Shown piece after piece: positions 810 through 50,189 of a DNA stretch of 64,000 nt. Source of the stretch: a candidate division LCP-89 bacterium B3_LCP. GTDB lineage: Bacteria > Electryoneota > B3-LCP. The notes beneath the pieces were generated by a model that saw only the letters and a program-made list of their open reading frames with translations, was not told the origin of the DNA and did not search any database. Location of the stretch: assembly GCA_005223185.1 (NCBI GenBank), contig NJBN01000003.1:248001-312000 (forward strand), read 5' to 3'. Made by a program: the position numbers and the translations under genes. Every line of letters begins with the position of its first letter. The first letter of the stretch is position 1.

Positions 810-1787
810 TCAGCCTTTAGCAGACTTATCCCACTCCTCAAGCAGTTTCGCTAACCTGCCAGCCTCATCTTTGCGGTTATCGTTATAGATACTGGTGGTT
901 CTGACGTCCTTGTGTCCGGCAAATTGTTGTACTCCGGTGATATTGCCGTTAGTCAGTTCCAGCAGATCCGTTACAGAGCTATGCCGTATTGCATGTGGTC
1001 TGGTTTTCACACCGACCTTAGCGCCAAGCGTTCTAACTATGTGATATACGCCGGTGCCGGTTATGCGTTTTCTGATCTCAGGATTACGATGCAGGTTATA
1101 GAACAGGGCACCAGGGGAATTGCCTCTCTCTTCGATCCAGATACCAAGTGCCTTTTTTGTCTCTTCGGGTAAGGTTCTGATCCGCTTCTCAAGCTTTCCC
1201 TTTTCCAATACGGCAATCGTTCCAGAATCTAAATTCACATCCTCAAGGTCAAGGTTGACAATAGCGCCTCGTCTTAAGCCCAAATACCGGTGAAGCATCA
1301 GTATTGCTACATCCCTCTTCGCCTTGGGAGTAAACTGTTGCTTTCGGGCTGTCTCAAGCATATTCAGGAATACAACCTGAGTCGGTCCTGAAGTATCCCT
1401 AAATGCTTCGGTAGGTACGTTCTTGATTCTCAGTTCCCATTGAATCAATCCCATTACCTGCATGAAGCGCACTAATGCTCGCAGGGCTGTTAAACGGGTA
1501 TTGATGGTTCCAGGTGATAGACCTCGCTCTTTAAGATTGGTCTGGTATCTCAGGGCTGTGCGATATGCTTCGACGGGGCTTGATTGGAGAAAGCTTAGAA
1601 GTGCTGGAAAGATCTCATTCTCGCCGATGAATTGCGCAAAGTCCTTGAGTCCCTGCTGGTAGGTTCTACAGGTACGCTCATTCAAATGGGAAAAGAAATC
1701 ATCAGCCACTTCCCGGATATTCTCAAGAGATGGACTCCCGGAATTAACCGGGAACCCATCAGAGTTTAGAGCTGGATTAGCATTCAT
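810..1787 (-). CDS. Tyrosine recombinase/integrase of element 1
   Basis: Site-specific recombinase expected to insert and excise the element carrying ardC-1. The start at 1787 gives MNANPAL and has a strong ribosome site (GGAGG, 6 nt upstream); a longer frame upstream only overlaps the ATPase gene. About 325 residues. The N-terminal half is a SAM-like core-binding domain; the C-terminal half carries the catalytic set: Arg in LGLRRGAI, Lys in the EKGKLEKR beta-hairpin, HAIRH box, the GHKD His and the nucleophile Tyr in SIYND. The layout is XerC/XerD-like. It overlaps the preceding ATPase gene by 11 nt, so it is last in a four-gene operon driven from the ardC-1 leader. Fully intact by motif content; the attachment site it uses is not identified with certainty. 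Confidence 0.9.
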
Positions 1788-2469
1788 TTGGAACCTCCAG
1801 CCCGCCTTGGCAGTCAAGCATTTCACCCATTTCAACAGCTTGAAGCATGGTTCTGAAGTTGTTGCCGGTCTTTCTGGCAAGCTTCACATAGTCCTCAATC
1901 GGCTTTCCGTCCAGACCGGCGCCCATAGCTATTTCCTTGCACCGTTCGGCAAAGGGTTGAGTTAAATCACGTTGCGCTAAATCCAGAACTATACACCGGC
2001 TTATAAGTGGAGAGGCATCAATGTTCTCATCGAATAGATTCTTCTCCCCAAGTTTGGTGGTGGTAAAGCAGATCAGACCGTTGCCGATTTCACTCCTTGC
2101 GAGTCTCTCAAGCAAGACAAGCAGAGCCCTGATCGTATCTTTACGGAGTCCATGCGCTTCATTGATGATTAAGGCATGTCCACCTTTTCCCCAAAGTGTC
2201 GAATAGCACCAGGTGGATACGATGGAGTCAAGCTGTGCAGGTGATAACTTGGTATCCGCATCTATCTCATGAGTGGTGAGATCATCGGCAATTTCTTTGG
2301 CTATTAACCGGCAGATCGTACTTTTTCCGGTGCCGGATTTGCCGGTTACCCATAGTGCACGTCCACTTAATCCTCGTTTGCGGATCAGGTCCAGCTTTGC
2401 CAGGACTTTATCCTGACCAATAACCTCGTCAAAGGTAGCCGGTCTAAATTCTTCATATAGTGCTTGCAT
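1777..2469 (-). CDS. Miniature clamp-loader-like AAA+ ATPase (copy 1)
   Basis: A 230-residue protein made almost only of a AAA+ module. It opens with [14 protein letters not shown], the usual start of DnaX/RFC small subunits. Walker A is GKSGTGKST (about residues 43-51). The Walker B position reads LIINEAHG, with Asn where the family normally has Asp. A clamp-loader SRC motif (LISRC) supplies the expected arginine finger. A short lid helical region follows, but the C-terminal collar domain of true clamp loaders is missing. The family loads sliding clamps on DNA; here a role in element DNA metabolism is inferred only. It lies 2 nt after the zinc-ribbon gene and overlaps the integrase. It is nearly identical to the protein at 37663-38325 but has a longer tail ([11 protein letters not shown]). 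Confidence 0.82.
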
Positions 2470-2760: not shown

Positions 2761-3627
2761 TTATTCACTCCCTTCATGCGTTTTGTTCAGAATGAAATCA
2801 GCCGCTTTCTGGCCTTGACTGGCCGCTTGAACTAAGAATTTCTTATCAGAACGTAGCCTCTTTAACCAGCCCTGAATGTATCCGGCTGAGTTGTCAATCA
2901 CTCGTTCAACAATGCCAGACTCCCCGCAGAGGAAAGCTGAACCTAACTCAGCGCATAGTTCCTCTTTAGAATAGCTGTGGGAACCATAGCCTTGAAGCTC
3001 TGTGATCCCTTTTCTATTCAGCCGGTTTTCATGGCCAGTTGAGTGAGTTAACTCGTGAAAAAGCGTTGAATAGTATTCCTCATCGGATTTGAAGAGTTTC
3101 TTTTTCGGCATGTTTACCAGGTCTGCACTCGGTCGGTAGTAAGCTTGGCTTTCGACATGCTGAATTTCTGGCCGCCTTGGCATTCCGGCAACAATTCTCT
3201 CGGCCGTCTCAATCGGTTTGAATTCCTTGGTTTCTTCTGTAAGTGCAGGAATTTTATCCTCTGGAATGCCTACCGTTTGAGTTAGATTAAATACGGTATA
3301 ATACCTCAAGAACGGTATTTTGTCAACTTCACCAGTTACCTCATCCTCTCTTTCGATCCATTTCCAGAATACCACCGGGGTTCCCTTTTCCCCGGCTTTA
3401 ATTCCGCCGCTTAAATCATTCGCTTGCTTGAACGTCAACCAGTAAGGTGAAGTGAACCTCATGGAAGCCAGCAGGAAGGGATTGATTCCCCGGTACTCTT
3501 TACCGGAAACTAAATTCCTCGGCATATCATTTCCTGCATTCCAGGGCTTCTGCCAAGGGATTTCCTCCTTCTCAAGCAGATCACAAATTCGGTCTGTGAT
3601 CACTTGATAAGCATCTTTCTTTTGCAT
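2761..3627 (-). CDS. ardC: ArdC-like antirestriction protein with zincin domain (copy 1)
   Basis: A 288-residue protein of the ArdC type: an N-terminal ssDNA-binding domain (DUF1738; [45 protein letters not shown]) followed by a zincin metallopeptidase-like domain with the [12 protein letters not shown] zinc motif (about residues 190-201). ArdC proteins of conjugative plasmids bind single-stranded DNA and protect incoming DNA from restriction. First gene of the element-1 operon, preceded by a structured leader. The start at 3627 is preceded by CGAGGTAAAAC, a good ribosome site. It is highly similar to the protein at 36794-37663. Antirestriction is inferred from family; which enzyme it counters is unknown. 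Confidence 0.88.
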   Translation of the reverse strand: MQKKDAYQVITDRICDLLEKEEIPWQKPWNAGNDMPRNLVSGKEYRGINPFLLASMRFTSPYWLTFKQANDLSGGIKAGEKGTPVVFWKWIEREDEVTGEVDKIPFLRYYTVFNLTQTVGIPEDKIPALTEETKEFKPIETAERIVAGMPRRPEIQHVESQAYYRPSADLVNMPKKKLFKSDEEYYSTLFHELTHSTGHENRLNRKGITELQGYGSHSYSKEELCAELGSAFLCGESGIVERVIDNSAGYIQGWLKRLRSDKKFLVQAASQGQKAADFILNKTHEGSE

Positions 3628-3807
3628 GTTTTACCTCGTTGATTTTGACATGTAAAAATCCCAGACTTGTCAACGCCCAACGAGGTTGAAGCGCCCGATG
3701 CCTCGCGACAATCGGAGTCTGGGATGAGTTGCTATTAAGTGCAAACAAAAAAATACCTCGTTTGGTTTTGACGCTTATAATATAACAATTAACCATGCGT
3801 AAGTCAA
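3628..3807 (-). promoter_or_regulatory. Promoter and structured 5' leader of ardC-1 (leader L1)
   Basis: Minus-strand promoter TTGACT (3802-3807), 17-nt spacer, TATATT (3779-3784). The RNA should start near 3772, at a segment GCGTCAAAACCAAACGAGG (3756-3774). Next comes a 10-bp stem ATCCCAGACT (3716-3725) with AGTCTGGGAT (3658-3667). Directly abutting the 5' strand is a small hairpin (3695-3715) with a bulge and a GCGA tetraloop. Abutting the 3' strand is a segment (3668-3685) complementary to the 5' segment. A TTTTT run follows the stem. The ribosome-site region GTCAAAATCAACGAGG (3635-3650) repeats the 5' segment, so the internal strand can pair with either. Two related leaders exist at 36600-36793 and 15081-15259. 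Confidence 0.8.
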
Positions 3808-13898: not shown

Positions 13899-13943
13899 GG
13901 CCTTCTAAGCCGAGGGTTCCGGGTTCGAGTCCCGGCGGGCGTA
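13899..13943 (+). tRNA. 3' fragment of tRNA-Arg(UCU), element-2 attachment site
   Basis: The sequence starts at the anticodon loop CTTCTAA (anticodon UCU) and continues through GCCGA, a variable loop, a full T arm (CCGGG TTCGAGT CCCGG) and acceptor strand CGGGCGT plus A. No D arm or 5' acceptor strand precedes it; GGC is all that remains of the 5' anticodon stem. It is therefore not a functional gene but the usual duplicate left when an integrase targets the anticodon loop. Partial relatives lie at 50122, 53363 and 58416. Confidence 0.8.
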
Positions 13944-14051: not shown

Positions 14052-15080
14052 CTAACCAACACATGTTAAAACCTCCACGGTATCAAGCAAATCAGGAACG
14101 GTTACATGTGTGTATACCTCAGTAGTTTTAGTACTACTATGACCTAAGAGTTTGGCAACCTTTGAAAGGTGTATTCCAGCGCGAACAAGATCGCTGCAAG
14201 TTGTGTGGCGTAGACAATGCAAATGCAGACTTTCTCTCAGGTCAGCCCTACGCAGGTACTCTTTAAATAGGTGAGAAACCCAATCTGCTCCATAATTGAA
14301 AGGTCTAGGTTGCCCTCTATCCAATGACATAATAATTTGCATAAGTTCCAATCCTATAGGGATTGTTCTATCCCTTTTGGTCTTAGTATTCCTAAATGTC
14401 AACCGCCTCTGTTCAACGTCTATATCCGCCCACTGTAACTTTATCGCTTCACTTCTACGGCATCCGGTAAGCAAATAGAACCTGAACAGGCGTGAATGGT
14501 TCTCATCCCTAATTACGGATAAGAAGCGTGCTTTCTCGTCAGGGGAAAGACAGAGGGGGATATTCTTTCCTTCAACTACCGGAATTATCCCTTTTCTCGT
14601 AAATGGATTGTAGCGGAGATATTTCTGTCCAGGTTTTTCTACAGCCCAATTCAGAGCAGCTCGTATAGACCGTAGTTCGATACTTGCTGAAGTTTGTTTA
14701 ATAGTCTCGTCTTTGTGTTTCCTATACTGAAGGGCTATTATCTCGGTAATTGCAGTTAATGCAATGTCACCAACGAATGTGAGTAACCGGCTTAATGAAT
14801 AAGCGTCTGTGGATATAGTTCTTGCGGCCTTATCTTGTCGCTTCCTCTCTTCGAGGTAAATCTCGATAAATTCAGACAATAGAATCGGGATTATTTTTAC
14901 TTCAGGTTCTAATCCCTGCTCGATGCGAGCAGCCTCGGCTTCTATCTTTTTCAACACTTCCAAGGCCACCTTCTTGTCGCTTGTCCCAGTTGATTTGGTA
15001 TGATGCCTTCCATTTAGATAGTAAGTTACATGCCAAATATAACTACCACCTTTCTTTTTCCGCTTATACAAACTTGCCAT
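14052..15080 (-). CDS. Tyrosine integrase of element 2
   Basis: A 342-residue phage-type integrase. The N-terminus (ASLYKRKKKGGSYIWHVTYYLNGRHH) resembles an arm-type binding domain; a core-binding domain follows (about 65-165). The catalytic domain has Arg in TGCRRSEA, Lys in RNTKTKRDR, HCLRHTT, LGHSS and Tyr in EVYTHV. It is the left-most gene of element 2 and lies next to a tRNA-Arg 3' fragment, its likely target. It is preceded by leader L3 and translated from a GGAGG site 4 nt before the ATG. Relation to the element-1 integrase is distant. Intact by motifs. Confidence 0.92.
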   Translation of the reverse strand: MASLYKRKKKGGSYIWHVTYYLNGRHHTKSTGTSDKKVALEVLKKIEAEAARIEQGLEPEVKIIPILLSEFIEIYLEERKRQDKAARTISTDAYSLSRLLTFVGDIALTAITEIIALQYRKHKDETIKQTSASIELRSIRAALNWAVEKPGQKYLRYNPFTRKGIIPVVEGKNIPLCLSPDEKARFLSVIRDENHSRLFRFYLLTGCRRSEAIKLQWADIDVEQRRLTFRNTKTKRDRTIPIGLELMQIIMSLDRGQPRPFNYGADWVSHLFKEYLRRADLRESLHLHCLRHTTCSDLVRAGIHLSKVAKLLGHSSTKTTEVYTHVTVPDLLDTVEVLTCVG

Positions 15081-15259
15081 ATTTCCTCCGTAGAGAGAAA
15101 AACCCGACAGCGTCCACGCTCACACTAGGTTAGCGTTTGGGTCCTCACGGATACCCAACTGTCGGGCGGTTATGCAACGAAAATGCCGAGGAAATTCTCG
15201 GCGATTTCCTAGTGTGATGTGGACAATTGAAATATAACACTTCGAATTGCAAAAGTCAA
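15081..15259 (-). promoter_or_regulatory. Promoter and structured 5' leader of the element-2 integrase (leader L3)
   Basis: Promoter TTGACT (15254-15259), 17-nt spacer, TATATT (15231-15236). The 5' segment (15208-15225) is complementary to an internal segment (15111-15129). The latter abuts the 3' strand CTGTCGGG (15103-15110) of an 8-bp stem; the 5' strand CCCGACAG (15159-15166) abuts a hairpin (15137-15158) with a GTGA tetraloop and a bulge. TTTTT follows the stem. This is the same plan as the ardC leaders with different bases. Here the ribosome site ACGGAGG is not clearly complementary to the internal segment. An extra GCCGAG/CTCGGC hairpin lies between the 5' segment and the stem. Confidence 0.78.
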
Positions 15260-22477: not shown

Positions 22478-24928
22478 ATGGCCCTAAAGAAATCCCAACT
22501 CTACAGCTCGCTTTGGAGTAGTTGTGATGAACTGCGTGGCGGAATGGATGCCTCGCAGTACAAGGACTATGTCCTCACGCTGCTGTTCATGAAATACGTC
22601 TCCGACAAGTACGGTGGCAAGCCCGATGCAACCATTGAGGTGCCGGAAGGCGGCAGCTTTGCTGATATGGTCAAACTCAAAGGTGACAAGGAGATCGGAG
22701 ACAAGATTAACAAGATCATTGGTGTCTTTGCCGAGGCTAACGATCTTAAGAACGTAATTGACCAGGCTGATTTCAACGATGAGGACAAGCTCGGCCGCGG
22801 TAAGGAGATGCAGGACCGTCTATCCAAACTAGTGGCGATCTTTGATGGGCTGGATTTCCGAACCAACCGGGCTGAGGGGGATGACCTGCTGGGAGATGCT
22901 TATGAGTACCTGATGCGGAACTTCGCTACAGAATCCGGAAAGAGTAAAGGACAGTTCTACACCCCAGCCGAAGTTTCCCGTATTATGGCAAATGTTATTG
23001 GAATCGATAGGGCTGGTGAATTTCGTGATCCCACAGTCTATGATCCAACTTGCGGATCGGGATCTTTGTTAATTAAAGCAGCTGATGAAGCGAACATAAA
23101 GAACATAGCTATCTATGGTCAGGAGATGGACAATGCGACTTGGGCTCTTGCACGAATGAATATGATTCTGCATGACTATCCTGCACATGAGATATGGAAA
23201 GACAATACACTTTCGTTGCCAAAATTTAAGAATCCCGATAACAGTCTTCAGACCTTTGATTTTGCCATCGCCAATCCTCCATTCTCTTCCAAGGCATGGA
23301 CTACAGGATTCGATCCAGCTAATGATGAGTTTCATCGGTTTGAATATGGTGTTCCCCCGGCCAAGAACGGTGATTATGCCTTCCTATTGCACCTGATCAA
23401 GTCTCTGAAGAGCAAGGGTAAGGGAGCCATTATTCTGCCACATGGTGTGCTTTTCCGCGGGCATAGGGAAGCAAATATCCGTCGTAATATTGTGAAACGC
23501 GGCTTGATTAAGGGTATTATTGGTCTGCCTGCAAACCTGTTCTATGGCACAGGCATTCCTGCATGCATCTTGGTCATCGATAAAGAACATGCCCATGCTC
23601 GCACCGGTATCTTCATGATCGACGCATCTAAGGGATTTATGAAAGACGGCAACAAAAACCGGCTCCGGTCGCAGGACATCCACAAGATCGTGGAGGTGTT
23701 CAATAAGCAGATCGAGCTACCGCGCTATTCCCGCATGATACCGGTGGCTGAAATTGCTGATCCTGCCAACGATTACAATTTAAACATCCCGAGGTACATC
23801 GACTCCAGCGAACCGGAAGATCTGCACGATCTTCACGCCCACTTAAATGGCGGCATTCCCAACCGGGATGTTGATGCACTGCAACCATACTGGGATGTTT
23901 TCCCATCACTACGAAATGTGCTTTTCAGGAACAATGGCACCGAAGGATATAGCGAACCCAGCATTGAGACTCAGCAGGTTAAACCAACCATCCTCGCTCA
24001 CCCTGAATACAAGGCGTTCGCCGGACGTGTTACGACTATTTTCGAACAATGGCGTGAGGTTCATGAGCCGCTGCTTAAAGGACTTGATATTGGTACCAAA
24101 CCAAAGGAAGCGATTCATACAATTTCCGAAGATCTTTTGGCACATTTCACCGACATACCGTTGCTCAATCGCTACGACGCATATCAACGGCTGATGGACT
24201 ATTGGGCGGATGCGATGCAAGACGATATTTACCTGATTGCTGTCGATGGCTGGATAGACGCAGCCAAACCTCGCGGGATAATTGAGGATAAAGAGAAGAA
24301 GATCAAAGAGACCCCAGACCTTACGCTTGGCCGGATAAAATACAAGATGGATTTAATCCCTCCGAACTTGATCGTTGCCCGTTATTTCGAAGGTGATCAA
24401 GCTGAGGTTGACGAGTTAAGGACCAAGCAGGAATCCGCGACTCAGGAGCTGGAGGAATTCGTCGAGGAGCATACCGGCGAAGAGGGTCTACTCGCTGATG
24501 TAACCAACGATAAGGGAAAAGTTACCAAGGGTGCCGTTAAGGAACGGCTTAAGCAGATCGGCAAGGATCCGGAATTCGCCGATGAGCATGATGCTCTGAC
24601 TCGTTGCATGAAATTGATTGTGGCAGAATCAGAGGCAACTAAAGCTGTAAAGAATGCCCAAGCAGAACTCAACACACGAATATTGGCAAAGTATCCTAAG
24701 CTCTCCGGGATTGAGATCAAAGCCCTCGTTGTTGAGGATAAATGGTTCGCATCGGTTCAATCTGCTATAATAGGAGAAGTACAGCGGGTAATACAACAAC
24801 TTGCAGGAAGGGTAAAGGAACTTGATGATCGCTATGCTGATCCTTTACCAAGACTGGAAACAGATGTAAACACACTAAGTACTAAGGTTGAAGACCACTT
24901 GAAAAAAATGGGATTTGAATGGATATAA
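22478..24928 (+). CDS. hsdM: Type I restriction-modification DNA methyltransferase subunit
   Basis: An 816-residue N6-adenine methyltransferase subunit of a type I system. The N-terminal helical domain (SQLYSSLWSSCDELRGGMDASQYKDYVLTLLFMKYVSDKY) is typical. AdoMet motif I is DPTCGSGSL (about residue 188) and the catalytic motif IV is NPPFSSK (about 266). Usual HsdM is 490-530 residues; here a C-terminal extension of about 280 residues with charged coiled-coil segments (EELEEFVEEH, LAGRVKELDDRY) is present. Works with HsdS for modification and with HsdR for cleavage. First gene of the operon, overlapping hsdS by 10 nt. Confidence 0.95.
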   Translation: MALKKSQLYSSLWSSCDELRGGMDASQYKDYVLTLLFMKYVSDKYGGKPDATIEVPEGGSFADMVKLKGDKEIGDKINKIIGVFAEANDLKNVIDQADFNDEDKLGRGKEMQDRLSKLVAIFDGLDFRTNRAEGDDLLGDAYEYLMRNFATESGKSKGQFYTPAEVSRIMANVIGIDRAGEFRDPTVYDPTCGSGSLLIKAADEANIKNIAIYGQEMDNATWALARMNMILHDYPAHEIWKDNTLSLPKFKNPDNSLQTFDFAIANPPFSSKAWTTGFDPANDEFHRFEYGVPPAKNGDYAFLLHLIKSLKSKGKGAIILPHGVLFRGHREANIRRNIVKRGLIKGIIGLPANLFYGTGIPACILVIDKEHAHARTGIFMIDASKGFMKDGNKNRLRSQDIHKIVEVFNKQIELPRYSRMIPVAEIADPANDYNLNIPRYIDSSEPEDLHDLHAHLNGGIPNRDVDALQPYWDVFPSLRNVLFRNNGTEGYSEPSIETQQVKPTILAHPEYKAFAGRVTTIFEQWREVHEPLLKGLDIGTKPKEAIHTISEDLLAHFTDIPLLNRYDAYQRLMDYWADAMQDDIYLIAVDGWIDAAKPRGIIEDKEKKIKETPDLTLGRIKYKMDLIPPNLIVARYFEGDQAEVDELRTKQESATQELEEFVEEHTGEEGLLADVTNDKGKVTKGAVKERLKQIGKDPEFADEHDALTRCMKLIVAESEATKAVKNAQAELNTRILAKYPKLSGIEIKALVVEDKWFASVQSAIIGEVQRVIQQLAGRVKELDDRYADPLPRLETDVNTLSTKVEDHLKKMGFEWI

Positions 24929-26184
24929 ACGCTACAAGAAGGCAATTTAATCACCCAGACAATGCCTATGATGCGATGTCGATCCCAAGCGATTGGAGTT
25001 TCGCTCCACTTAATTTTATTACTATAGAAATCGGAGATGGAATCCACGCAACGCCTAACTATTCACAAGATGGGGAATACAATTTCATCAATGGCAATAA
25101 CATTTGTGATGGCCGGATAATTATAACCGAAGATACCAAAGCCGTGGAAAGCTCCGAATTCAATAAATATAAGAAAAATCTTGGAACTAATACCGTCCTC
25201 CTATCAATTAACGGTACGATAGGAAATGTGGCGTTGTATAGTGGAGAACCCGTCGTTCTTGGGAAAAGCGCTGCATACCTTAATGTAAAGAATAATGTTA
25301 ACAGAATTTATTTCTATTATTCTCTCCAAACAGACTTAGTTGCACAGCAATTCGAGGATGGTATTACAGGAACAACCATAAGAAACTTAGGCCTGGAAAC
25401 TATTCGACAAACACAAATTCCAATTCCACCAACTGAATCCGAACAACGCGCCATCGCTGAGGCATTGTCAGACGTGGATGAACTGGTCGGGGCATTGGAC
25501 AAGTTGATTGCCAAGAAGCGAGCAATCAAGCAGGGAACCATGCAGCTGCTGCTTACCGGAAAGACACGGTTGCCGGGATTTCGTGGGGAGTGGGATAGTA
25601 ATCCCTTATCCACTCTATGCACTATTGAAACCGGCCGTCGACCAAAGGGAGGAGTGACAGAGGAAGGCGACATACCTAGTTTAGGTGGTGAAAATATCCA
25701 CAATTCTAATGGATTGAAACTTGAGGTGATAAAGAGAGTACCAGAACTGTTCTTTAAATCAATGCATAGTGGTATCCTTAAGGAATTTGATATCATTATA
25801 AATAAAGATGGTGCGAATACAGGTAAGGTAGCAATCTATACTGGCACAGGTTTTACTCATGCATGTATAAACGAACATCTATTTCTTCTTCGTGCTAAAG
25901 AAGGTGTTGATGCTCGTTACTTTTATGAAGCTCTTTCTATGGACTCAATACGTAATGAAATCAATAAACATATCGCAAGTTCAGCTCAACCTGGTTTGAA
26001 TCGAAAATTCTATGAGGTAATTCAGATTCGGATTCCCGAATTAGAGGAGCAACGGGCAATCGCTAAGGTTCTATCTGATTTAGACGCCGAGATCACTGCC
26101 TTGGAACAGCGACGAGACAAGACTATGCAGATCAAACAGGGTATGATGCAGCAGCTTCTAGCAGGAAAGACGAGGCTAATATGA
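24919..26184 (+). CDS. hsdS: Type I restriction-modification specificity subunit
   Basis: A 421-residue HsdS with the standard two halves. Each half is a target-recognition domain (about 20-165 and 225-365) followed by a conserved helical spacer: ESEQRAIAEALSDVDELVGALDKLIAKKRAIKQGTMQLLLTGKTRLPGF and EEQRAIAKVLSDLDAEI...KQGMMQQLLAGKTRL. The two TRDs differ, so a bipartite asymmetric target is expected. The start overlaps hsdM; a second start at 24976 is possible. No inverted-repeat shuffling cassette is visible nearby. Confidence 0.94.
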   Translation: MDINATRRQFNHPDNAYDAMSIPSDWSFAPLNFITIEIGDGIHATPNYSQDGEYNFINGNNICDGRIIITEDTKAVESSEFNKYKKNLGTNTVLLSINGTIGNVALYSGEPVVLGKSAAYLNVKNNVNRIYFYYSLQTDLVAQQFEDGITGTTIRNLGLETIRQTQIPIPPTESEQRAIAEALSDVDELVGALDKLIAKKRAIKQGTMQLLLTGKTRLPGFRGEWDSNPLSTLCTIETGRRPKGGVTEEGDIPSLGGENIHNSNGLKLEVIKRVPELFFKSMHSGILKEFDIIINKDGANTGKVAIYTGTGFTHACINEHLFLLRAKEGVDARYFYEALSMDSIRNEINKHIASSAQPGLNRKFYEVIQIRIPELEEQRAIAKVLSDLDAEITALEQRRDKTMQIKQGMMQQLLAGKTRLI

Positions 26185-26251
26185 GAATCGTCGCTATCAA
26201 CAGACAGGAATATCGCCTGCCAGGTTAGCTTTAAACTTATTAAGGTGTGAG

Positions 26252-29200
26252 ATGAGTGAAGTAGGACAGAGAGAGATCCTGACTCAGGCGCACGTCGTTA
26301 AATTCTTCGACGAGGAGTTGGACTACAAATACATCGGTAATTGGGAAAATCGTCTCGGCAACAGCAACGTCGAAGAGGAATACCTTATTGACTGGCTTAA
26401 GCGGCAGGGACATAGCGACAGGATCATTGAAAAAGTACTTCGGGAGCTAGATAAGGCTAAGACATTGGGTGGGAGTAAGACACTCTACGATGCCAACCGA
26501 GAAGTTTACACTCTATTGCGCTATGGTATCAAAGTACGGCCTGAGGTTAGTGAGCAATATATTACCGTCTGGCTAATCGATTGGGAGAACATCAATAACA
26601 ACGATTTCGCAATCGCTGAAGAAGTAACAGTTGCCGGTGATGAAAACAATAAACGGCCTGACATTGTTTTATACGTCAACGGTATTGCCCTTGGTGTACT
26701 TGAACTGAAACGTTCGACGGTATCTGTGACCGAGGGTATCCGGCAGAACCTTGACAGTCAGAAAAAGGAATTCATAAAGCCGTTCTTTACCACCATCCAA
26801 TTAGTAATGGCAGGCAACGATACTGAGGGACTACGTTACGGTGTAATTGAGACACCCGAAAAATATTACCTGAAATGGAAAGAGGATAGCACAGTTGAAA
26901 ATCCTTTGGATCGAGCGCTCGGGCAACTTTGCCGCAAAGATCGCTTATTAGAGATAATTTACAATTTCATGGTCTTCGATGCTGGTAAAAAGAAAATCTG
27001 CCGGCACAACCAGTACTTTGGGGTTCGGGCAGCACAAGAGCATGTTAGGCGTCGCGAGGCCGGGATCATCTGGCACACTCAAGGCAGTGGCAAGAGCCTT
27101 ACCATGGTCTGGCTCGCCAAGTGGATCCGCGAACGTGTGACCAACAGCCGTGTCCTGATAATCACCGACCGGACTGAACTCGACGAACAAATCGAGAAAG
27201 TCTTTATGGGCGTCGATGAGGATATCTATCGAACCAGGAGTGGTACAGACTTGGTAAATGTCTTAAACGTGAACGAGGAGTGGCTGGTTTGCTCGTTAAT
27301 ACATAAGTTCGGTAGATCGGATGAGGCTGACATTGATGCCTTCCTCAAAGACATTGAAAAACACTTACCGCATGGATTTCGTGCGAAAGGTGAGCTATTC
27401 GTGTTCGTGGATGAGTGTCACCGCACCCAGTCAGGCAAATTTAACCAAGCAATGAAGGCTATTGTACCCGGTGCTATGTTGATCGGTTTTACCGGCACAC
27501 CTTTGCTCAAGAGGGATAAGAAAACGAGCATCGAGGTCTTTGGACCGTATATCCACACCTATAAATATGATGAAGCCGTGCTTGATGGTGTCGTGCTGGA
27601 CCTGCGCTACGAAGCCCGTGACATTGACCAGAACATCACCTCACAGGATAAGGTTGATCAATGGTTTGATATCAAGACAAGAGGGTTATCAGATTTAGCC
27701 AAGGCGCAGCTCAAACAGCGCTGGGGCACGATGCAGAAAGTGCTTAGTGCACAGGACCGGCTGGAAAAGATTATTGCGGATATCCTAATTGACATGGAGA
27801 CACAAGACCGGCTTAGGAGTGGCCACGGAAACGCAATGCTGGTCTCTGGGAGTATTTATTCGGCATGCCGGTTCTTTGAGATGTTCCAACGAACCGATTT
27901 GGCTGGGAAATGTGCGATTATAACATCCTATAAGCCGTCATCGTCTGACATCAAGGGGGAGGAGACGGGGGAAGGACAAACAGAGAAACTCCTGCAGTAT
28001 GATATTTATCGAAAGATGCTGGCGACTCACTTTGATGAACCGGAAGAAACGGCTATGCACAAAGTCGAACAGTTCGATAAGGATGTAAAGAAACGTTTCA
28101 TCGAAGAACCGGGGCAGATGAAACTCCTGATCGTAGTTGATAAGCTATTGACCGGTTTCGACGCCCCACCAGCGACGTACCTCTACATCGATAAGCATAT
28201 GCACGACCATGGTCTATTCCAGGCGATCTGCCGCGTCAACCGCCTCGATGGTGAGGATAAGGAATACGGCTACGTTATCGATTACAAAGACCTGTTTAAA
28301 TCACTTGAAAAATCGATCAAGGATTACACCGGTGAGGCATTTGATGCCTATGATTTAGAAGACGTCCAGGGCCTGCTGAAAGACCGTCTGGATCAAGCCC
28401 GGGAACGGTTAGAGGAGTGCCGTGAATCTATCAAGGCATTATGCGAGACGGTGGAGCCGCCACGCGACACGGCGGCCTACTTGCGATTCTTCTGTACAGC
28501 AGATAGTATGGATGGCCAGGCCTTAAAGGACAATGAACCGAAACGTGTAGCGCTCTATAAGATGACATCAGCATTTCTCCGGGCATATGCTAACCTGGCG
28601 AACGAAATGCCTGACGCTGGTTACTCCGACTCCGAAGCCCAGGAAATCAAGGCTGAGGTAAGCCATTACGAAAAAGTTCGTGAGGAGGTTAAATTGGCCA
28701 GCGGTGACTACATCGACATGAAGATGTATGAGCCAGCCATGCGTCACCTACTGGATACCTACATTCGTGCTGAGGAGAGTGAGATACTCTCTGAATTCGA
28801 TGATATGACGCTGGTGGAGTTGATCGTAGAACGTGGTGAGGACGCGGTAAAATCACTGCCAAAGGACATACGTGAAAATCAGGAGGCGATGTCTGAAACA
28901 ATTGAGAATAACGTCCGCAGGCTCATTATTGACGAGATGGCAGTAAATCCCAAATACTATGAAAAGATGTCGGAGCTGCTGGATGCTCTTATTCAAGCCC
29001 GCAAGAAAGAGGCACTGGATTACAAAGCCTACCTTGCAAAGATTGTTGAGCTGACGAAAAAGGTAAGCAAACCGGAAACACAATCGACATATCCTTCTTC
29101 TATAAATACATCCGCACTTAGAGCACTCTACGACAACTTGGATGAGAACGAGAACATAGCTGTTCAAATAGATACTGCTATTCGAACTGTGAAAAAGGCT

Positions 29201-29323
29201 GGTTGGCGCGGGAATAAGCTCAAGGAACGAGAAGTGCGAAACGCTATTAAATCCGTTCTGGGCGATGATGCCAGTCTTATAGAAAATACCTTCGAAATTG
29301 TAAAGAATCAACGTGACTACTAA
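26252..29323 (+). CDS. hsdR: Type I restriction endonuclease subunit
   Basis: A 1023-residue motor-nuclease. The N-terminal PD-(D/E)xK-type nuclease has RPDIVLYVNGIALGVLELKR (about 137-155). The SF2 motor follows, with Walker A TQGSGKSLT (about 273), DECH box FVDECHRTQSG (about 388), GFTGTPLLK, and motif VI in FQAICRVNRLDGE. The C-terminal third is helical, as expected for contact with the HsdM-HsdS core. Length is within the usual 950-1100. Sixty-seven nt after hsdS. A normal, intact restriction subunit. Confidence 0.95.
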   Translation: MSEVGQREILTQAHVVKFFDEELDYKYIGNWENRLGNSNVEEEYLIDWLKRQGHSDRIIEKVLRELDKAKTLGGSKTLYDANREVYTLLRYGIKVRPEVSEQYITVWLIDWENINNNDFAIAEEVTVAGDENNKRPDIVLYVNGIALGVLELKRSTVSVTEGIRQNLDSQKKEFIKPFFTTIQLVMAGNDTEGLRYGVIETPEKYYLKWKEDSTVENPLDRALGQLCRKDRLLEIIYNFMVFDAGKKKICRHNQYFGVRAAQEHVRRREAGIIWHTQGSGKSLTMVWLAKWIRERVTNSRVLIITDRTELDEQIEKVFMGVDEDIYRTRSGTDLVNVLNVNEEWLVCSLIHKFGRSDEADIDAFLKDIEKHLPHGFRAKGELFVFVDECHRTQSGKFNQAMKAIVPGAMLIGFTGTPLLKRDKKTSIEVFGPYIHTYKYDEAVLDGVVLDLRYEARDIDQNITSQDKVDQWFDIKTRGLSDLAKAQLKQRWGTMQKVLSAQDRLEKIIADILIDMETQDRLRSGHGNAMLVSGSIYSACRFFEMFQRTDLAGKCAIITSYKPSSSDIKGEETGEGQTEKLLQYDIYRKMLATHFDEPEETAMHKVEQFDKDVKKRFIEEPGQMKLLIVVDKLLTGFDAPPATYLYIDKHMHDHGLFQAICRVNRLDGEDKEYGYVIDYKDLFKSLEKSIKDYTGEAFDAYDLEDVQGLLKDRLDQARERLEECRESIKALCETVEPPRDTAAYLRFFCTADSMDGQALKDNEPKRVALYKMTSAFLRAYANLANEMPDAGYSDSEAQEIKAEVSHYEKVREEVKLASGDYIDMKMYEPAMRHLLDTYIRAEESEILSEFDDMTLVELIVERGEDAVKSLPKDIRENQEAMSETIENNVRRLIIDEMAVNPKYYEKMSELLDALIQARKKEALDYKAYLAKIVELTKKVSKPETQSTYPSSINTSALRALYDNLDENENIAVQIDTAIRTVKKAGWRGNKLKEREVRNAIKSVLGDDASLIENTFEIVKNQRDY

Positions 29324-30041
29324 ACGACACCAGATTGTTGTTCAGGGCATAACCGTAGAGGTTGTCCGGAAGGATATAAAGAACCTCCACTTAGGTGTCT
29401 ATCCACCGAATGGCAGAGTTCGTGTATCTGTCCCATCACGCCTCGATGATGAGTCAGTTCGGTTGGCTGTAATATCACGCCTGGGTTGGATTAGAAAACA
29501 ACAAGATAAGTTTGAACAGCAAGCACGCCAGTCACAACGTGAGATGGTCACAGGGGAAAGCCATTACTTTCAGGGTCACCGATACCGACTCAATGTTATT
29601 TATTGTAAAGGCCCATCAAGTGTCAGTATTACGAAGAATTCAACTCTGGAGTTGCGGGTGCGTCCCGGAACTAAAAGAGACAAACGTGAGGTCATACTTA
29701 ATAGGTGGTACCGCCAGCAGTTAAGTGAACAAATTCCAGAGTTAATTGCTAAATGGGCACCAACAGTTGGTGTGACTGTGGCTGAATGGCGCATCAAGAG
29801 GATGAAGACTCGTTGGGGAACCTGTAATACTAAAGCCAAGCGAATTTGGTTGAATTTAGAGCTGGCAAAGAAACCTGATTCTTGTCTCGAGTATATTGTG
29901 GTACATGAAATTGTTCATTTACTGGAACGACAGCATAACGAACGCTTTAGGGAATATATGAATCGTTTCATGCCTCAGTGGCATATATATCGCGATGAAC
30001 TTAAACAAGTTCCTCTTGCACATGAGCATTGGATATATTAG
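29313..30041 (+). CDS. YgjP-like (DUF45) metallopeptidase in the restriction operon
   Basis: A 242-residue zinc metallopeptidase-like protein. It contains RMKTRWGTCNTK (the WGxC box of this family) and the HEIVHLLERQHNERF zinc site with a third His four residues after LER. The start is GTG at 29313, overlapping hsdR by 11 nt. Genes of this family are very often the last gene of type I restriction operons, but their role there is not established; protein maturation or control of the restriction complex has been suggested. Intact. Confidence 0.88.
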   Translation: MTTKRHQIVVQGITVEVVRKDIKNLHLGVYPPNGRVRVSVPSRLDDESVRLAVISRLGWIRKQQDKFEQQARQSQREMVTGESHYFQGHRYRLNVIYCKGPSSVSITKNSTLELRVRPGTKRDKREVILNRWYRQQLSEQIPELIAKWAPTVGVTVAEWRIKRMKTRWGTCNTKAKRIWLNLELAKKPDSCLEYIVVHEIVHLLERQHNERFREYMNRFMPQWHIYRDELKQVPLAHEHWIY

Positions 30042-30315
30042 TCCAGGACTTTATTTGAGTTCAATGTGGCTGGATTAGAGTGATAATTGAATCGTCCATT
30101 TCATGGTTTGAGAAACGTATTGGAAATATCGAATGGACCGACACCGTGTTTGCGTTAACGTACACCTAAATACGAGATGAAGCGGAGATACAGAAAGGAT
30201 AGTTTTTGTTTTTCAGATGAATGGAATTAAACAAAAATCCGAACCCAAATTTCAGCTCCTTGGACAATTAATCTTAGAGCGGGTGTTTCGGGGGAACTAT
30301 TATTAACTAGGCGAT

Positions 30316-31215
30316 ATGGCACCAACGAATCCAGAAAATTTTCTTCGACAGATCAAAGACCCGGCTTTTCTTAGAAAGTGCGTTGTTTTTATTGGTGCAG
30401 GTTTATCCATTCCGCCAGGAAAGCGTTGGGATAAGCTCGTTCGAGAAATCGCTACGAAATGCGTGGTGGAGGTTCAGAGTAAAACTAATAAGCAGATAAT
30501 AGATGATTGCTTGTTGAAACCTGATGCGTACAAGAAGGCCTTTAGGGAGCTATTCCCAAAGTATCAAGCAGCCTGCAGGACTGCACTACCCTATATCCTT
30601 CATATAGAATTTAAGGCATATATTACTACAAACTTTGGTCCATACTTAAGAAACCTTGCTAGTTCAAGAGACATAAATCGAGTACATGTCTATCCGGATC
30701 TTCCTCTGAATCATGGTCTTTCAAAAGCAATATATTATATTCATGGGTGTTATGATTCTGAAGATCCGAATTCTGATCCTGAACAACTCATTTTTGGATT
30801 TCAATCTTTCGAGGATGGCTATGGCTCGCCTAGCTTATTGCCAGGCTTTCTTCTAAGTCTATTTACTTATGAAAATATTCTTTTTTTAGGTTTTGATCCA
30901 CTAGAAGAAAAGATTAGAGCTATATTAGAGGAATCTATAGAAGTTAGGAAGAGTGTTTGGCAGACCAATTCAAAGCACGGAAACACTGGGCCTAAAAGAT
31001 ATGTACTTTGGCCATCTCCACTAATAGACAACGCTGGAGAAAGGGCTAAGTTGGAATCAACAATCGAAGAATTTAAAGCTTTAGATCTAGATCCAATTAC
31101 CTATGATCCTATTTATGAAGATTATAGTGGTCTTGAAAAATTACTACACGAAATAATTGCACAAGAGGAATTCGTCAATCGTCCTCCTCCATTTACTAGT
31201 GGTTTTGATTTATGA
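30316..31215 (+). CDS. SIR2-like domain protein, putative NADase effector
   Basis: A 299-residue stand-alone SIR2-like (SIR2_2) protein. NAD-fold motifs are present: FIGAGLS (about residues 26-32), YITTNF (about 100), the catalytic-type His in YYIHGCYD (about 141), FGFQSFEDGY and NILFLGFDPLEEKIR (about 190-205). In defence systems such domains deplete NAD upon phage infection. The stop overlaps the start of the next gene by 4 nt (ATGA), so the two are cotranslated. It follows the restriction operon after 275 nt without a gene. No signal or membrane segment. Defence role is inferred from domain and neighbours. Confidence 0.82.
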   Translation: MAPTNPENFLRQIKDPAFLRKCVVFIGAGLSIPPGKRWDKLVREIATKCVVEVQSKTNKQIIDDCLLKPDAYKKAFRELFPKYQAACRTALPYILHIEFKAYITTNFGPYLRNLASSRDINRVHVYPDLPLNHGLSKAIYYIHGCYDSEDPNSDPEQLIFGFQSFEDGYGSPSLLPGFLLSLFTYENILFLGFDPLEEKIRAILEESIEVRKSVWQTNSKHGNTGPKRYVLWPSPLIDNAGERAKLESTIEEFKALDLDPITYDPIYEDYSGLEKLLHEIIAQEEFVNRPPPFTSGFDL

Positions 31216-34181
31216 AGAATAACGAAAAACATCAATTGTCGATGAAGAATAAAAAATACTTTGATCTACAAGATGATATCGATAGATTCGTTAGAAGCAA
31301 TTTAAGTCCGGATGCTCTTGTAGCGAATATTATGGAAGTTGTTTCCGAGCAAAGCTTGGTAGAATATTTTTTAAAACAACTAGAACAACCTACCTATCTT
31401 CGGCCCTTGAAAGGGCACGGTTTTTTCAAAAATCCACCTAGTTCAATCCATCATGAAGAAGAGGGCACCATAAGTTTTCCAATCTGGGCAGAATCTCGTT
31501 ACCTCTCCCGAATGGCTGAACACGATCCAAAAACTGTTTTAAATATCATCCTGCAGATTCCAGAAACCGATAATGCCCGCGTCCATGAAGATTTGATTGA
31601 TGCTGTAATCAAAATGCCAGCTAATTTGGCTGTCGAGTTAAAAGACATGGTGAAAGAGTGGGCACAAGATCCCTACCTCTTATTACCAAAGAAAATCGGC
31701 ACATTAATATCTCACCTCGCACAAGGTGGGCAAGCTGAAGCTGCATTGGAGCTCGCCTCTTCTATACTTGGAATCCTACCTGATCCGGAGACTGATGAGA
31801 AACGGAAAGAAGATGAATATTTCCGCCCATCGCCTGAACCACGAGCCCGAATTAGACCCTTGACATACGAGAAGATCATTGAAAGAAATTTCCCTGATCT
31901 GGTTAAGGCAACAGGAATTCCAGCACTGAGCCTCCTCTGTGGTTTATTAGAAAACTATGTTCAGTATTCCCGCAGAACGGAAGAAGACAAAGGTCCTCAA
32001 GATTATTCATATATTTGGCGTCCGGCAATTGAAGAACATTCGCAGAATCATAAATATGGATTGAAAAGCATTTTAGTAAAAGGAGTTCGTGATACAGCAG
32101 ATCAAGTAATCGCCCTAGGCAAAGCTGACACACAAGAAGTCGTTCGCCAACTTGAAAGTCACAATTGGTATATTTTTAAACGAATATCCCTCTATATATT
32201 ATTTAGATACAACGAACAAAATTTGGATTTAATAGCAGGTTATCTTACTAATAAAACACTTTTTGAGGAGCCACATGCGCGTCATGAATATGTACTACTA
32301 GTTCAAAAATACTTCGATAAATTATCGAATGAGCAGCAACTAATGATCTTTGGATGGATTGATTCTGGTCCGGATGTCGATGCTTATCGAAACAATCCGA
32401 ATCCGATAACTGGAGAAAAGCCGACCGACGAACAAGTAGCGATATTTACAGAAAATTGGAAACTTAGACGTTATACATGGATTCGCGCTCATTTGTCCGG
32501 GGAGAAGTTGCAGCGTTGCGAAGAATTAATTAAGAAGTACGGAGAGCCAGAATTTCCCGATCTTCCTAGCCAGCAAGTCTCGTGGGCTGGACCGACAAGC
32601 CCGAAAACAACTGAAGAACTTCAAAAAATGCTGGTTCCTGATATCGTTGAATATCTGAAGACATGGGAACATACAGGAAAAGATATGGAGCCTTCGCCAA
32701 TTGGTTTAGGTCGTTCCCTGTCGCCAGTAATAAGCCAAGATCCGTCAAAATTTGCAGCAGAGGCCGAATTATTCAAAGAGTTAGATCCAACTTACGTTCG
32801 CCATTTTCTCGAAGGCCTGCATGAGGGACTGAAACAAGGGAAATCTTATGAATGGGAATCCGTACTTGATCTGTGTCTGTGGGCAGTCAAACAGCCCCGT
32901 GAAATTCCAGATAAGAAAGTAGAATATCTCGAAGCCGATCCACACTATGGTTGGGCTCGCAAATCAACGGCACAATTTCTGGGTGCAGGGTTTAACGATG
33001 GTCCCGGCTGCATACCTTTTGATAAGCGAGAAGTTGTATGGGAGATCCTGGAGAAAATAACAAAAGACACAGATCCCACACCGGATGTAGAGTCGAATTG
33101 GAGCAGCGGACCTTCTTCTCTATCCATAAATTCGACGCGTGGTGAAGCAATGCACAGCGTTATCCGTTACGCTCTATGGGTCGCCCGAAATATACATAAG
33201 ATGCCTAATGGTGATGAACGCCTCAAGCGTGGTTTCGATGAAATAACAGAGGTGCGGAACGTATTGGAAAAACATCTTGATACCAATGAAGAAAAATCAC
33301 TTGCAATAAGATCGGTTTATGGGCAATGGTTGCCATGGCTTGTGAAACTGGACCAGAAATGGCTTTTAGAAAACTTGAATATGATTCTCCCAATGGGAGA
33401 CAAAGAACTAGAATATTTCGATGTTGCTTGGATGACTTACGTGACTCATAATAGAGCTTATGATCCCGTGTTTGATATCCTTCAAGATCGGTACATTCAA
33501 GCCGTTGATCGACTTGGTGAAGAAAGGGAAAGAGATGACGAATATAATGAATATGAGAGATCTTTAGCACGCCACATTATGGAGTTATATTGGCGGGGAA
33601 GGATCGACAATTCTGGCTCGAAGGGACTTCTTTCTAAATTCTGGGAAAAGGCAAACAGGAATGTTAGAGGTCATGCAGTAGAGGTTATAGGTAACTGGTT
33701 GAAGGATGCGAAGGATGATATACCGGAAGAGGTTCTCGATCGCCTTCAAAGCCTGTGGGAAGGGCGGCTTGCTATAGCGAAAGGCGCTGAAGATAAAGAT
33801 CAATATAAACCTGAAATGAAGGAGTTTGGATGGTGGTTCGCATCCGGTCAGTTTGAAGACGATTGGGCATTCGCACAATTGAAAGAAGCTGTTAAGTTAG
33901 CTGGAAGACTGGATGTTGACTTTTTAGTAGTCAAGCACCTTGTGGAACTTGTCAAAACCTATCCCAAAAAAGCCATCGAGTGCCTGCATACAATGATTGA
34001 AGCAGATAATGAAGGCTGGAGTATTCTTGGATCTGAAAAAGAAGCCGAAATTATCCTGAAAGCCGCTATGGAAAGTACAGATAGTTCAGCCTCGCAGGCA
34101 GCTGAAGATCTGATTCATTATCTTGGCAGCAGAGGGTATCCGAAGTTCAGGTATTTACTGAAAAAACCTGATAGTAAATAG
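31212..34181 (+). CDS. Large helical-repeat protein paired with SIR2
   Basis: A 989-residue, soluble, mostly helical protein with a high charge. Repeating two-helix units (SRYLSRMAEHDPKTVLNIILQIP, VHEDLIDAVIKMPANLAVEL, AEAALELASSILGILPDP) give it a HEAT/ARM-like look over the first 250 residues and again near 690-960. I see no Walker box, nuclease motif or zinc site. It is translationally coupled to the SIR2 gene. In comparable two-gene systems the long partner senses the phage and restrains the NADase, which is a reasonable guess here. It could be a known but unannotated defence family; I do not recognise it. Confidence 0.75.
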   Translation: MKNNEKHQLSMKNKKYFDLQDDIDRFVRSNLSPDALVANIMEVVSEQSLVEYFLKQLEQPTYLRPLKGHGFFKNPPSSIHHEEEGTISFPIWAESRYLSRMAEHDPKTVLNIILQIPETDNARVHEDLIDAVIKMPANLAVELKDMVKEWAQDPYLLLPKKIGTLISHLAQGGQAEAALELASSILGILPDPETDEKRKEDEYFRPSPEPRARIRPLTYEKIIERNFPDLVKATGIPALSLLCGLLENYVQYSRRTEEDKGPQDYSYIWRPAIEEHSQNHKYGLKSILVKGVRDTADQVIALGKADTQEVVRQLESHNWYIFKRISLYILFRYNEQNLDLIAGYLTNKTLFEEPHARHEYVLLVQKYFDKLSNEQQLMIFGWIDSGPDVDAYRNNPNPITGEKPTDEQVAIFTENWKLRRYTWIRAHLSGEKLQRCEELIKKYGEPEFPDLPSQQVSWAGPTSPKTTEELQKMLVPDIVEYLKTWEHTGKDMEPSPIGLGRSLSPVISQDPSKFAAEAELFKELDPTYVRHFLEGLHEGLKQGKSYEWESVLDLCLWAVKQPREIPDKKVEYLEADPHYGWARKSTAQFLGAGFNDGPGCIPFDKREVVWEILEKITKDTDPTPDVESNWSSGPSSLSINSTRGEAMHSVIRYALWVARNIHKMPNGDERLKRGFDEITEVRNVLEKHLDTNEEKSLAIRSVYGQWLPWLVKLDQKWLLENLNMILPMGDKELEYFDVAWMTYVTHNRAYDPVFDILQDRYIQAVDRLGEERERDDEYNEYERSLARHIMELYWRGRIDNSGSKGLLSKFWEKANRNVRGHAVEVIGNWLKDAKDDIPEEVLDRLQSLWEGRLAIAKGAEDKDQYKPEMKEFGWWFASGQFEDDWAFAQLKEAVKLAGRLDVDFLVVKHLVELVKTYPKKAIECLHTMIEADNEGWSILGSEKEAEIILKAAMESTDSSASQAAEDLIHYLGSRGYPKFRYLLKKPDSK

Positions 34182-34478: not shown

Positions 34479-35204
34479 TTAAGTGGTCAGTCCAACATAG
34501 ACCACCGGCGGAGTTTTTGAATCATCACGTTTAAGCGTAAAGATTTTAGGATAATCTTTGATAAGCGACTGAAGCCGTTCGTGACCGAATGTCCGGGGAT
34601 CGAATGCCGGATTCAACTTCCGAAGCACTGATCCTAGAGAAGACAGATGGACCCATTCTTCTTCCTTGGCCACCATTTCGAACGCCTGTATGAGGAGAGG
34701 TTTCGGATCAGGTGCATCCGACTTTCTCTTTTTCCTCGCTTTCCTGTTTACCCCAGCCTTATCGACCAGGTTTTCACAGTAAATAAACTGGTTACAGGCA
34801 TTGACAAAAGCTTCCGGAGTTTTCTTCTCACCGACACCGATGACGAAAAGCCCTTCCTCCCTGATTCTGGTTGCCAGACGGGTGTAGTCACTGTCACTGG
34901 AAACAATACCGAAACCGTCCACATCGTTACTGTGCAGTAAGTCCATGGCGTCAATGATCATGGCGCTGTCCGTAGCGTTCTTACCTATGGTGTACCGGAA
35001 CTGCTGAATCGGTTGAATGGCGTGCTTGTGAAGCAATGGCTTCCAACTGTTCATGTTGGTAGTAGTCCAATCTCCGTATATCCGCTTGATGGTAATCAGA
35101 CCAGACCTACTGATTTCAGCTAGTATCTGCGACAGAAGCGACGCCTGAGCATTATCCCCATCTATCAGTACTGCGAACCTTTGTTGGTCGGATTGATCAG
35201 CCAT
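34479..35204 (-). CDS. NYN-domain ribonuclease-like protein with OST-HTH/LOTUS tail
   Basis: A 241-residue protein. Residues 1-150 are a LabA/DUF88 NYN domain with acidic metal residues in VLIDGDNAQ, ATDSAMIIDAMDLL and IVSSDSDYTRLA, the PIN-like nuclease set. The C-terminal 75 residues (PLLIQAFEMVAKEEEWVHLSSLGSVLRKLNPAFDPRTFG...LIKDYPKIFTL) match an OST-HTH/LOTUS fold that binds RNA. The family is widespread in bacteria and thought to act on RNA; targets are unknown. It lies between two tRNA-edge repeats, on the opposite strand to the SIR2 pair. Confidence 0.87.
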   Translation of the reverse strand: MADQSDQQRFAVLIDGDNAQASLLSQILAEISRSGLITIKRIYGDWTTTNMNSWKPLLHKHAIQPIQQFRYTIGKNATDSAMIIDAMDLLHSNDVDGFGIVSSDSDYTRLATRIREEGLFVIGVGEKKTPEAFVNACNQFIYCENLVDKAGVNRKARKKRKSDAPDPKPLLIQAFEMVAKEEEWVHLSSLGSVLRKLNPAFDPRTFGHERLQSLIKDYPKIFTLKRDDSKTPPVVYVGLTT

Positions 35205-36599: not shown

Positions 36600-36793
36600 T
36601 TGACTTTAGAATTCTAATGTGTTATATTGCCAGTAGCTAAAGTCATTCAAAGAGGTTTTTGTGTTTAAAACAATAATCGTATCTTCCCGGTTGGTGGTAG
36701 CGGTAACGCCCACGAAAGTTCCTCTTTGGACTTTAGCTCAACCGGGATTTCTATCTCTATGAGATAAACACAGCTAAAACCAAAGAGGTAAAA
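36600..36793 (+). promoter_or_regulatory. Promoter and structured 5' leader of ardC-2 (leader L2)
   Basis: TTGACT (36600-36605), 17-nt spacer, TATATT (36623-36628). The 5' segment AGCTAAAGTC...CAAAGAGG (36635-36655) starts at the expected first base. Stem CCCGGTTG (36686-36693) with CAACCGGG (36739-36746). A hairpin with a 2-nt bulge and GTAA tetraloop (36694-36713) abuts the 5' strand. CCTCTTTGGACTTTAGCT (36721-36738) abuts the 3' strand and is complementary to the 5' segment except for a 3-nt bulge. The ribosome-site region AGCTAAAACCAAAGAGG (36772-36788) repeats the 5' segment, so it competes for the same strand. An ATCTC/GAGAT hairpin lies at 36753-36765. Confidence 0.8.
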
Positions 36794-50121: not shown

Positions 50122-50189
50122 CGGCCTTCTAAGCCGAGGGTTCCGGGTTCCTCCGAAGGAGTTCCTACGGAAGAGTCTCGGCGGGCGTA
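50122..50189 (+). tRNA. tRNA-Arg(UCU) 3' fragment with a 22-nt insertion in the T loop
   Basis: CGGC CTTCTAA GCCGA (anticodon loop UCU), variable loop, T stem CCGGG, TTC, then 22 extra nt (50151-50172), GAGT, TCTCGG and acceptor CGGGCGT plus A. The insert holds two mini-hairpins, CTCC-GAA-GGAG and TTCC-TAC-GGAA. No D arm or 5' acceptor strand. Not functional. The following ACAAGAATAACAATAG recurs after the copy at 53363. Confidence 0.72.

Follow-up and report, generated by a model that had tools for sequence, protein, structure and literature searches.

The window, meaning the whole 64-kb stretch of DNA that was analysed, carries on its minus strand a run of genes headed by a structured leader, L1. 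The first gene, ardC (2761–3627, minus strand), encodes an ArdcN domain together with an MPTase-PolyVal zincin domain (Pfam E 4e-33 and 3e-38) and matches a PHROG anti-restriction protein (E 3e-76). It is followed by a 101-residue ORF (2472–2777) with no Pfam or PHROG match, a clamp-loader-like AAA ATPase (1777–2469, minus strand) and a tyrosine integrase (810–1880, minus strand; Pfam Phage_integrase, E 7e-23). An intact tRNA-Arg(TCT) gene with an adjoining integrase lies 14 kb to the left of the window (L058, 5930–6003), and 28-bp copies of its 3' part are found at 13899–13926 and 50123–50150, both with the 23-bp repeat TAATCGCGTATTAATCGCACGAG nearby (14029 and 50065). These copies and repeats look like the att sites of tandem elements, and the sequence suggests that integrative elements have been inserted one after another at a single tRNA gene, with putative element limits. 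The second element of this presumed tandem holds leader L3, a type I restriction-modification system and leader L2. The region 22478–34181 contains the restriction-modification genes hsdM, hsdS and hsdR, a YgjP-like metallopeptidase, and a SIR2-like protein directly followed by a 989-residue protein with no Pfam match, these last two forming a possible defence pair. A NYN-domain protein with an OST-HTH/LOTUS domain (34479–35204) is located near L2.

The leaders and their parts

L1 extends on the minus strand from 3807 to 3625, with a promoter, a 5' segment, a stem, a hairpin, a U-run, a ribosome site and the ATG of ardC in that order. The promoter TTGACT-N17-TATATT (3779–3807) has a TG before the -10 box and scores 10/12 in a consensus scan. 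The 5' segment GTCAAAACCAAACGAGGT (3772–3755) is the predicted 5' end of the transcript, and in the pairing scan it is an upstream target copy, named a1b1 (GUCAAAACCAAACGAGGU). A C4-type antisense core with three helices and a U-run (3654–3725) is recognized by the covariance model R3 described below and by the minimum-free-energy (MFE) fold. The arms of the outer stem P1 (3658–3725), ATCCCAGACT at 3725–3716 and AGTCTGGGAT at 3667–3658, are complementary in 10/10 positions and also covary; TTTT stands directly behind them, giving the RNA a terminator-like UUUU, and a terminator scan of L1 did not call P1, the loop being too long for that scan. P2 (3695–3715) is a bulged hairpin, CCGAUUGUCGCGAGGCAUCGG, with the GNRA loop GCGA, seen in the sequence, in the MFE fold and in R3. 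P3 (3674–3693; CGCUU...GGGCG) is supported by the MFE fold and by covariation and has the segment b' in its loop (3678–3686), and the segment a', GUUGAC (3669–3674, pairing scan), is placed between P3 and the 3' arm of P1. The second target copy, a2b2 (GUCAAAAUCAACGAGGUA; 3632–3649, pairing scan), covers the ribosome site of ardC, a region reading GTCAAAATCAACGAGGTA (3649–3632). Folded in isolation, the core (3654–3725) gives the full structure at an MFE of -32 kcal/mol with a z of -3.8, and none of 200 shuffled sequences is as good.

The first-pass annotation had listed the promoter, the 5' segment, the outer stem, the bulged GCGA hairpin, an internal strand and the U-run of L1, and all of these statements hold on the minus strand; the third helix, P3 (3693–3674), had been overlooked. 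The internal strand, ACCTCGTTG...GTTGAC, is complementary to both the 5' segment and the ribosome-site region, and corresponds to the P3 loop (b') together with the 3' flank of P3 (a').

L2 is located on the plus strand and consists of the promoter TTGACT-N17-TATATT (36600–36628, motif scan), an a1b1 (36636–36656, duplex energy), a C4-type core (36685–36751, Rfam c4-2 and R3) and an a2b2 (36773–36789, pairing scan and duplex energy) over the ribosome site of the downstream ardC-2 (36794–37663, plus strand). On the minus strand, L3 has the same promoter motif (15231–15259, motif scan), an a1b1 (15208–15224, pairing scan and duplex energy) and a C4-type core (15098–15167, Rfam c4-2 and R3), with a terminator-like hairpin and T-rich tail (15185–15202) between the two, and is followed by a tyrosine integrase (14052–15080, minus strand; Pfam E 3e-26) that has no a2b2 at its ribosome site. 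The spacing from the -10 box to a1b1 is 6–7 nt in all three leaders, and most of the leaders found elsewhere are also preceded by similar promoters, as judged by eye. A fourth C4-type leader of this genome, on contig 18 (G000:C18:86008-86302; L002), is intact and stands before an ardC remnant, an open frame of 86 residues of which only the first 66 are covered by the query match.

Relation to the C4 antisense RNA clan

The Rfam family c4-2 (RF02944), a member of the clan of C4 antisense RNAs (CL00128), has a cut-off of 41 bits. L2 scores 40.8 bits, 0.2 below it (E 3.9e-7 over the whole genome), the contig 18 copy 37.4 bits, L3 29.1 bits and a related integrase leader 32.4 bits; L1 gives no match even at E 10, and none of the four leaders of this genome reaches 41 bits. 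The cut-off is passed by an integrase leader of genome G005 (L043, 49.0 bits) and by viral contig L050 (44.0 bits). A covariance model built from six leaders (R1) was searched in 41 genomes and found 10 further leaders outside its building set, all but one in the same family, and a second model built from 16 leaders (R2) added two ardC leaders (G002:C90 and G004:C65). In all, six genomes, each from the same phylum, yielded 18 leaders: 11 before ardC, 6 before integrases and 1 before an HNH gene. The third model, R3, was built from the leaders of other genomes, L043 included, and viral contig L050, with no row from this genome. Searched against 96 kb it recovers L1 with 63.2 bits (E 1.8e-14), L3 with 61.0 bits (E 6.8e-14), the contig 18 copy with 57.8 bits and L2 with 42.3 bits, the weakest E of the four being 8e-9, and in the whole genome L1 is found at E 7e-13; the E-values of these models are rough, and the margins are large. 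The R3 alignment was fitted with R2, which contained the leaders of this genome, making it independent in sequence and not in the choice of structure. By its R3 score L1 is homologous to bona fide members of c4-2.

Covariation was assessed in an alignment of 15 sequences, none from this genome (A5), where both partners vary in 18 of the 21 pairs, including 9/9 pairs of P1 and 5/5 of P3. Bases are paired in 92% of the cells against 65% after shuffling, and the covariation score is 0.764 against 0.238 for shuffled alignments and at most 0.245 for slid pairings; the fitting of A5 to the structure biases these counts in its favour, and the slid controls keep the relatedness of the sequences. The P2 hairpin is the part of the leaders most conserved in sequence. 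The GGW at the 5' end of the core, an RNase P signature, is present in none of the cores of alignment A4, and is a signature of the P1/P7 C4 RNAs that is not clan-wide. The first-pass annotation had proposed a conserved structured RNA with covariation, to be sought by covariance model before ardC or integrase genes, and the homologues beyond its three leaders, their covarying stems and their positions agree with this, the HNH gene being an addition.

It is highly improbable that the conserved unit is a DNA element, such as a single-stranded hairpin, an origin or a recombination site. The location in integrative elements beside integrase and ardC would fit such an element, and a STAXI motif near genes of this type was once discussed as possible single-stranded DNA (PMC2864571). 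That explanation is opposed by the fixed distance from a canonical promoter, the GNRA loops, the G-U pairs, the U-run and the overlap with the ribosome site, and by membership in a family with known antisense RNA. A small-molecule riboswitch was rejected, as no riboswitch family in Rfam matches the leaders and the core is kept, outside the P2 loop, as structure and not as sequence. An HDV-like, pistol or other ribozyme had been raised by the a-b-a'-b' topology; no such family was matched, and P3 and the C4 clan explain the topology.

Several other matches were set aside. The one in genome G028 (L034) is due to chance, as it falls within a cytochrome-oxidase-like gene and is no longer obtained with R2, and weak matches at G000:C7 and at window position 52766 were rejected. 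ArdC relatives of other phyla and of viruses (L006–L020) have no such leader upstream, and the DNA of L1 shows no similarity match to phage and plasmid records. C4-like cores are seen in a family of another phylum (L055, L056 and L057 in G230 and G088) before genes of unknown kind, one of them (L056) with a partly complementary stretch close to the start codon that follows.

The P2 of L3 (GGGTATCCGNGAGGACCC) recurs in viral contigs L051–L053, there too in the layout a1b1, core, a2b2. In L051 the RNA precedes an AntA/AntB antirepressor (Pfam E 4e-27), L053 being a near relative by sequence, and in L052 it precedes a gene for a Bro-N protein. The above-cut-off c4-2 of L050 stands before another AntA/AntB protein, and in L067 the RNA is found before a KilA-N-like gene, named by eye. 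Matches of the viral pattern in L054, L065 and L066 lack the C4 layout and were discarded. Contig L050 also contains a match to the type II hammerhead ribozyme (646–725; 49.6 bits, cut-off 37). The same RNA thus occurs before different genes in phages and here, the phage form guarding genes of the antirepressor type and the present form ardC, integrases and one HNH gene. A leader controlled by protein, with the GNRA/P1 core as the binding site through which ArdC, the AAA protein or a host factor turns down its own production, might be suggested by the sequence conservation of P2 and by the same core recurring before different genes. We consider it improbable, because those genes, ardC, integrases and HNH here and AntA/AntB in phages, have no protein in common, and because a'b' varies with its targets, which a protein site would not need.

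Pairing of the antisense segments with their targets

In a scan of both strands of the 64 kb, a2b2 is the best target of the L1 antisense, and in the genome it is the only exact-pattern match; a1b1 is the second best in the 64 kb when the antisense itself is left aside. The two targets of L2 rank best in the 64-kb scan, the upstream one tied with two others, and L3 has a single target there. Genome-wide, the L3 antisense has no second target within two mismatches, its own a1b1 being the only full one. Duplex energies were calculated for all targets against all antisense segments, and the cognate combinations were tested against permuted pairings. The cognate a1b1 and a2b2 duplexes have energies of -21.8 and -23.5 kcal/mol in L1 (each rank 1 of 16) and -24.3 and -21.2 kcal/mol in L2 (both rank 1), and that of a1b1 in L3 is -28.7 kcal/mol (rank 1). 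Over the leaders, a1b1:a'b' has a cognate mean of -25.4 kcal/mol against -15.2 for permuted pairings, and a2b2:a'b' in nine ardC leaders one of -22.3 against -14.2, with 0 of 20,000 permutations as good in either case; the two leaders found last agree with this result. In the integrase and HNH leaders a2b2:a'b' gives no signal (-14.4 against -13.7 kcal/mol). Among the a1b1 duplexes within this genome the cognate mean is -24.7 and the non-cognate mean -14.1, and the co-resident leaders differ from each other. The a'b' segment is the most variable part of the leader and varies together with its targets.

The a1b1 copy is located upstream of the core in 17 of the 18 leaders, as judged by eye. ardC leaders have both a1b1 and a2b2, and most integrase leaders, L3 included, have a1b1 only; before an integrase of a second type (L031) an a2b2 is present (GUUCAAAUCACAGGAG). 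An integrase leader of G001 (L005, 2198–2272), a genome of the same family as that of the window, keeps the C4-type core, with neither a1b1 nor a2b2 clear. Since most integrase leaders lack a2b2, a translational block cannot be their mechanism, which suggests that those with a1b1 only are controlled by termination. L2 and L3 had both been said to keep every pairing of L1. This is so for L2; L3 has the stem, the GNRA hairpin and the pairing of 5' and internal segments, and lacks the one at the ribosome site, where the energy with its own antisense is -11.3 kcal/mol and 250 of 300 shuffled sequences are as good, i.e. there is no complementarity.

The first-pass annotation had described a self-contained switch in cis, with no RNA acting in trans, in which the internal strand has two alternative partners: bound to the 5' segment it leaves the ribosome site accessible, and bound to the ribosome site it hides that site. 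A single molecule can form either pairing, and the two compete. In folds of 110-nt prefixes a1b1:a'b' is the minimum in L1, L2 and L3; at 130 nt, when the 3' arm of P1 has been made, L1 has switched to the C4 core and L2 and L3 retain the a1b1 pairing, although MFE prefixes, with pseudoknots ignored, show only roughly how an RNA folds while it is being transcribed. The change of partner as the L1 RNA grows speaks for such a switch, and the competing pairing and possible termination step of the earlier description are supported. A purely cis-acting leader nevertheless seems unlikely to us, as it leaves unexplained why the closed P1-P2-P3 core with its U-run is so strictly conserved, why the leaders are akin to C4 antisense RNAs and why there are integrase leaders with a1b1 and no a2b2, and there is no conserved ligand-like core left over. 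The switch would rather be one part of the mechanism, next to an antisense acting in trans, which is probable by analogy with C4 of phage P1 and CI of phage P4. As targets and antisense are on one transcript, action in cis and in trans is inseparable by sequence.

Proposed mode of action and comparison with known systems

In the classic cases of phage immunity regulated by RNA, those of P1 and the satellite phage P4, the regulators are the antisense RNAs C4 and CI. We judge with good confidence, from sequence comparison, that the leader is a C4-type antisense RNA repressing the gene that follows; the termination step, taken by itself, could equally well be right or wrong. On the basis of what the sequences establish, namely fold, covariation, two cognate targets, promoter position and family relation, we infer processing, trans action, termination, the order of events and their purpose as follows. 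Transcription would start at a1b1 and pass the P1-P2-P3 core, and the polymerase would then halt at P1 and the U-run or read on into ardC or the integrase gene. The core, released or processed, would expose b' in the P3 loop and a' in the 3' flank of P3. By analogy it probably acts as an antisense RNA in trans, for which the 5' segment would serve as a decoy or a further target. Cores from earlier transcripts might pair with a2b2 and block translation of ardC, in the manner of P1 C4 on its own target. By pairing with nascent a1b1 they might also free a'b' from its competitor, allowing P1 to form and transcription to end, in the manner of P4 CI with seqA. In a cell with no resident RNA, nascent a1b1 would pair with its own a'b' in cis, P1 would be delayed and the polymerase would pass. 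The expected outcome is that ArdC and integrase are made in a burst when the element enters, that the element then silences itself, and that elements sharing a specificity are immune to one another.

A self-limiting switch of the immunity type, on tandem elements integrated at tRNA-Arg, is therefore the likely function. We propose tentatively, and with somewhat less than even confidence, that non-phage integrative elements of this uncultured phylum use C4-type RNAs as determinants of immunity or incompatibility, each with its own a'b', a1b1 and a2b2, and that a newly arrived element makes ArdC and integrase only where no RNA of its type is already resident. Genomes can hold several such leaders, four here and seven in G005, and with a specificity of its own for each element, tandem elements in one genome would regulate themselves independently under the same incompatibility reading. 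It has long been asked what limits the expression of anti-restriction and integration genes to the first minutes after DNA enters a cell. If true, C4-type RNAs placed ahead of ardC and integrase genes would answer this question at the level of RNA, and the a'b' segments would predict mutual exclusion between elements and the RNA to which each leader responds.

The first-pass annotation knew of no described RNA with this arrangement before ardC genes; for the RNA itself this is wrong, as the arrangement is that of the C4 antisense RNAs (Rfam c4-2; PMC5320573). The leaders have the fold of the clan (CL00128), with P1, a P2 tetraloop hairpin and P3, and the upstream a1b1 copy; a2b2 over the ribosome site is present in L1, L2 and the other ardC leaders and absent from most integrase leaders. 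With c4-2 (RF02944) they share P1-P2-P3, the bulged GNRA P2, the P3 loop and 3' flank as pairing segments, and the U-run, but L1 is below detection by that model, and the gene that follows is ardC for L1, L2 and the contig 18 copy and an integrase for L3 and L043, as against an AntA/AntB antirepressor for the c4-2 of L050. The C4 RNA of P1 is processed from the transcript under its control, and the P1/P7 C4 RNAs (RF01695) have, like the leaders, three stems, a P2 tetraloop, antisense and target on one transcript, a b' complementary to the ribosome site, which it covers in P1, and an a' that gives specificity (PMC5320573). They differ in that the leaders target ardC or integrase and not the ant (antirepressor) operon, lack GGW at the 5' end of P1, have the U-run right behind P1, and would be processed only by analogy.

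The CI RNA of P4 pairs with seqA upstream and seqC downstream, leading to premature termination, and both it and IsrK of Gifsy-1 resemble the leaders in being an antisense flanked by upstream and downstream complementary copies, with a terminator-like hairpin after the upstream copy, here in L3 (PMC4825925). The genes are different, no CI family of Rfam was matched, and control by termination is presumptive in the leaders. The c4-a1b1 motif (Weinberg 2010), listed for gamma-Proteobacteria and phages, is alike in what its name conveys, an upstream target copy next to a C4 RNA. No paper placing a C4-type RNA before ardC was found in the literature searched. The kind of RNA is thus known, and what is new is its target genes and its host group.
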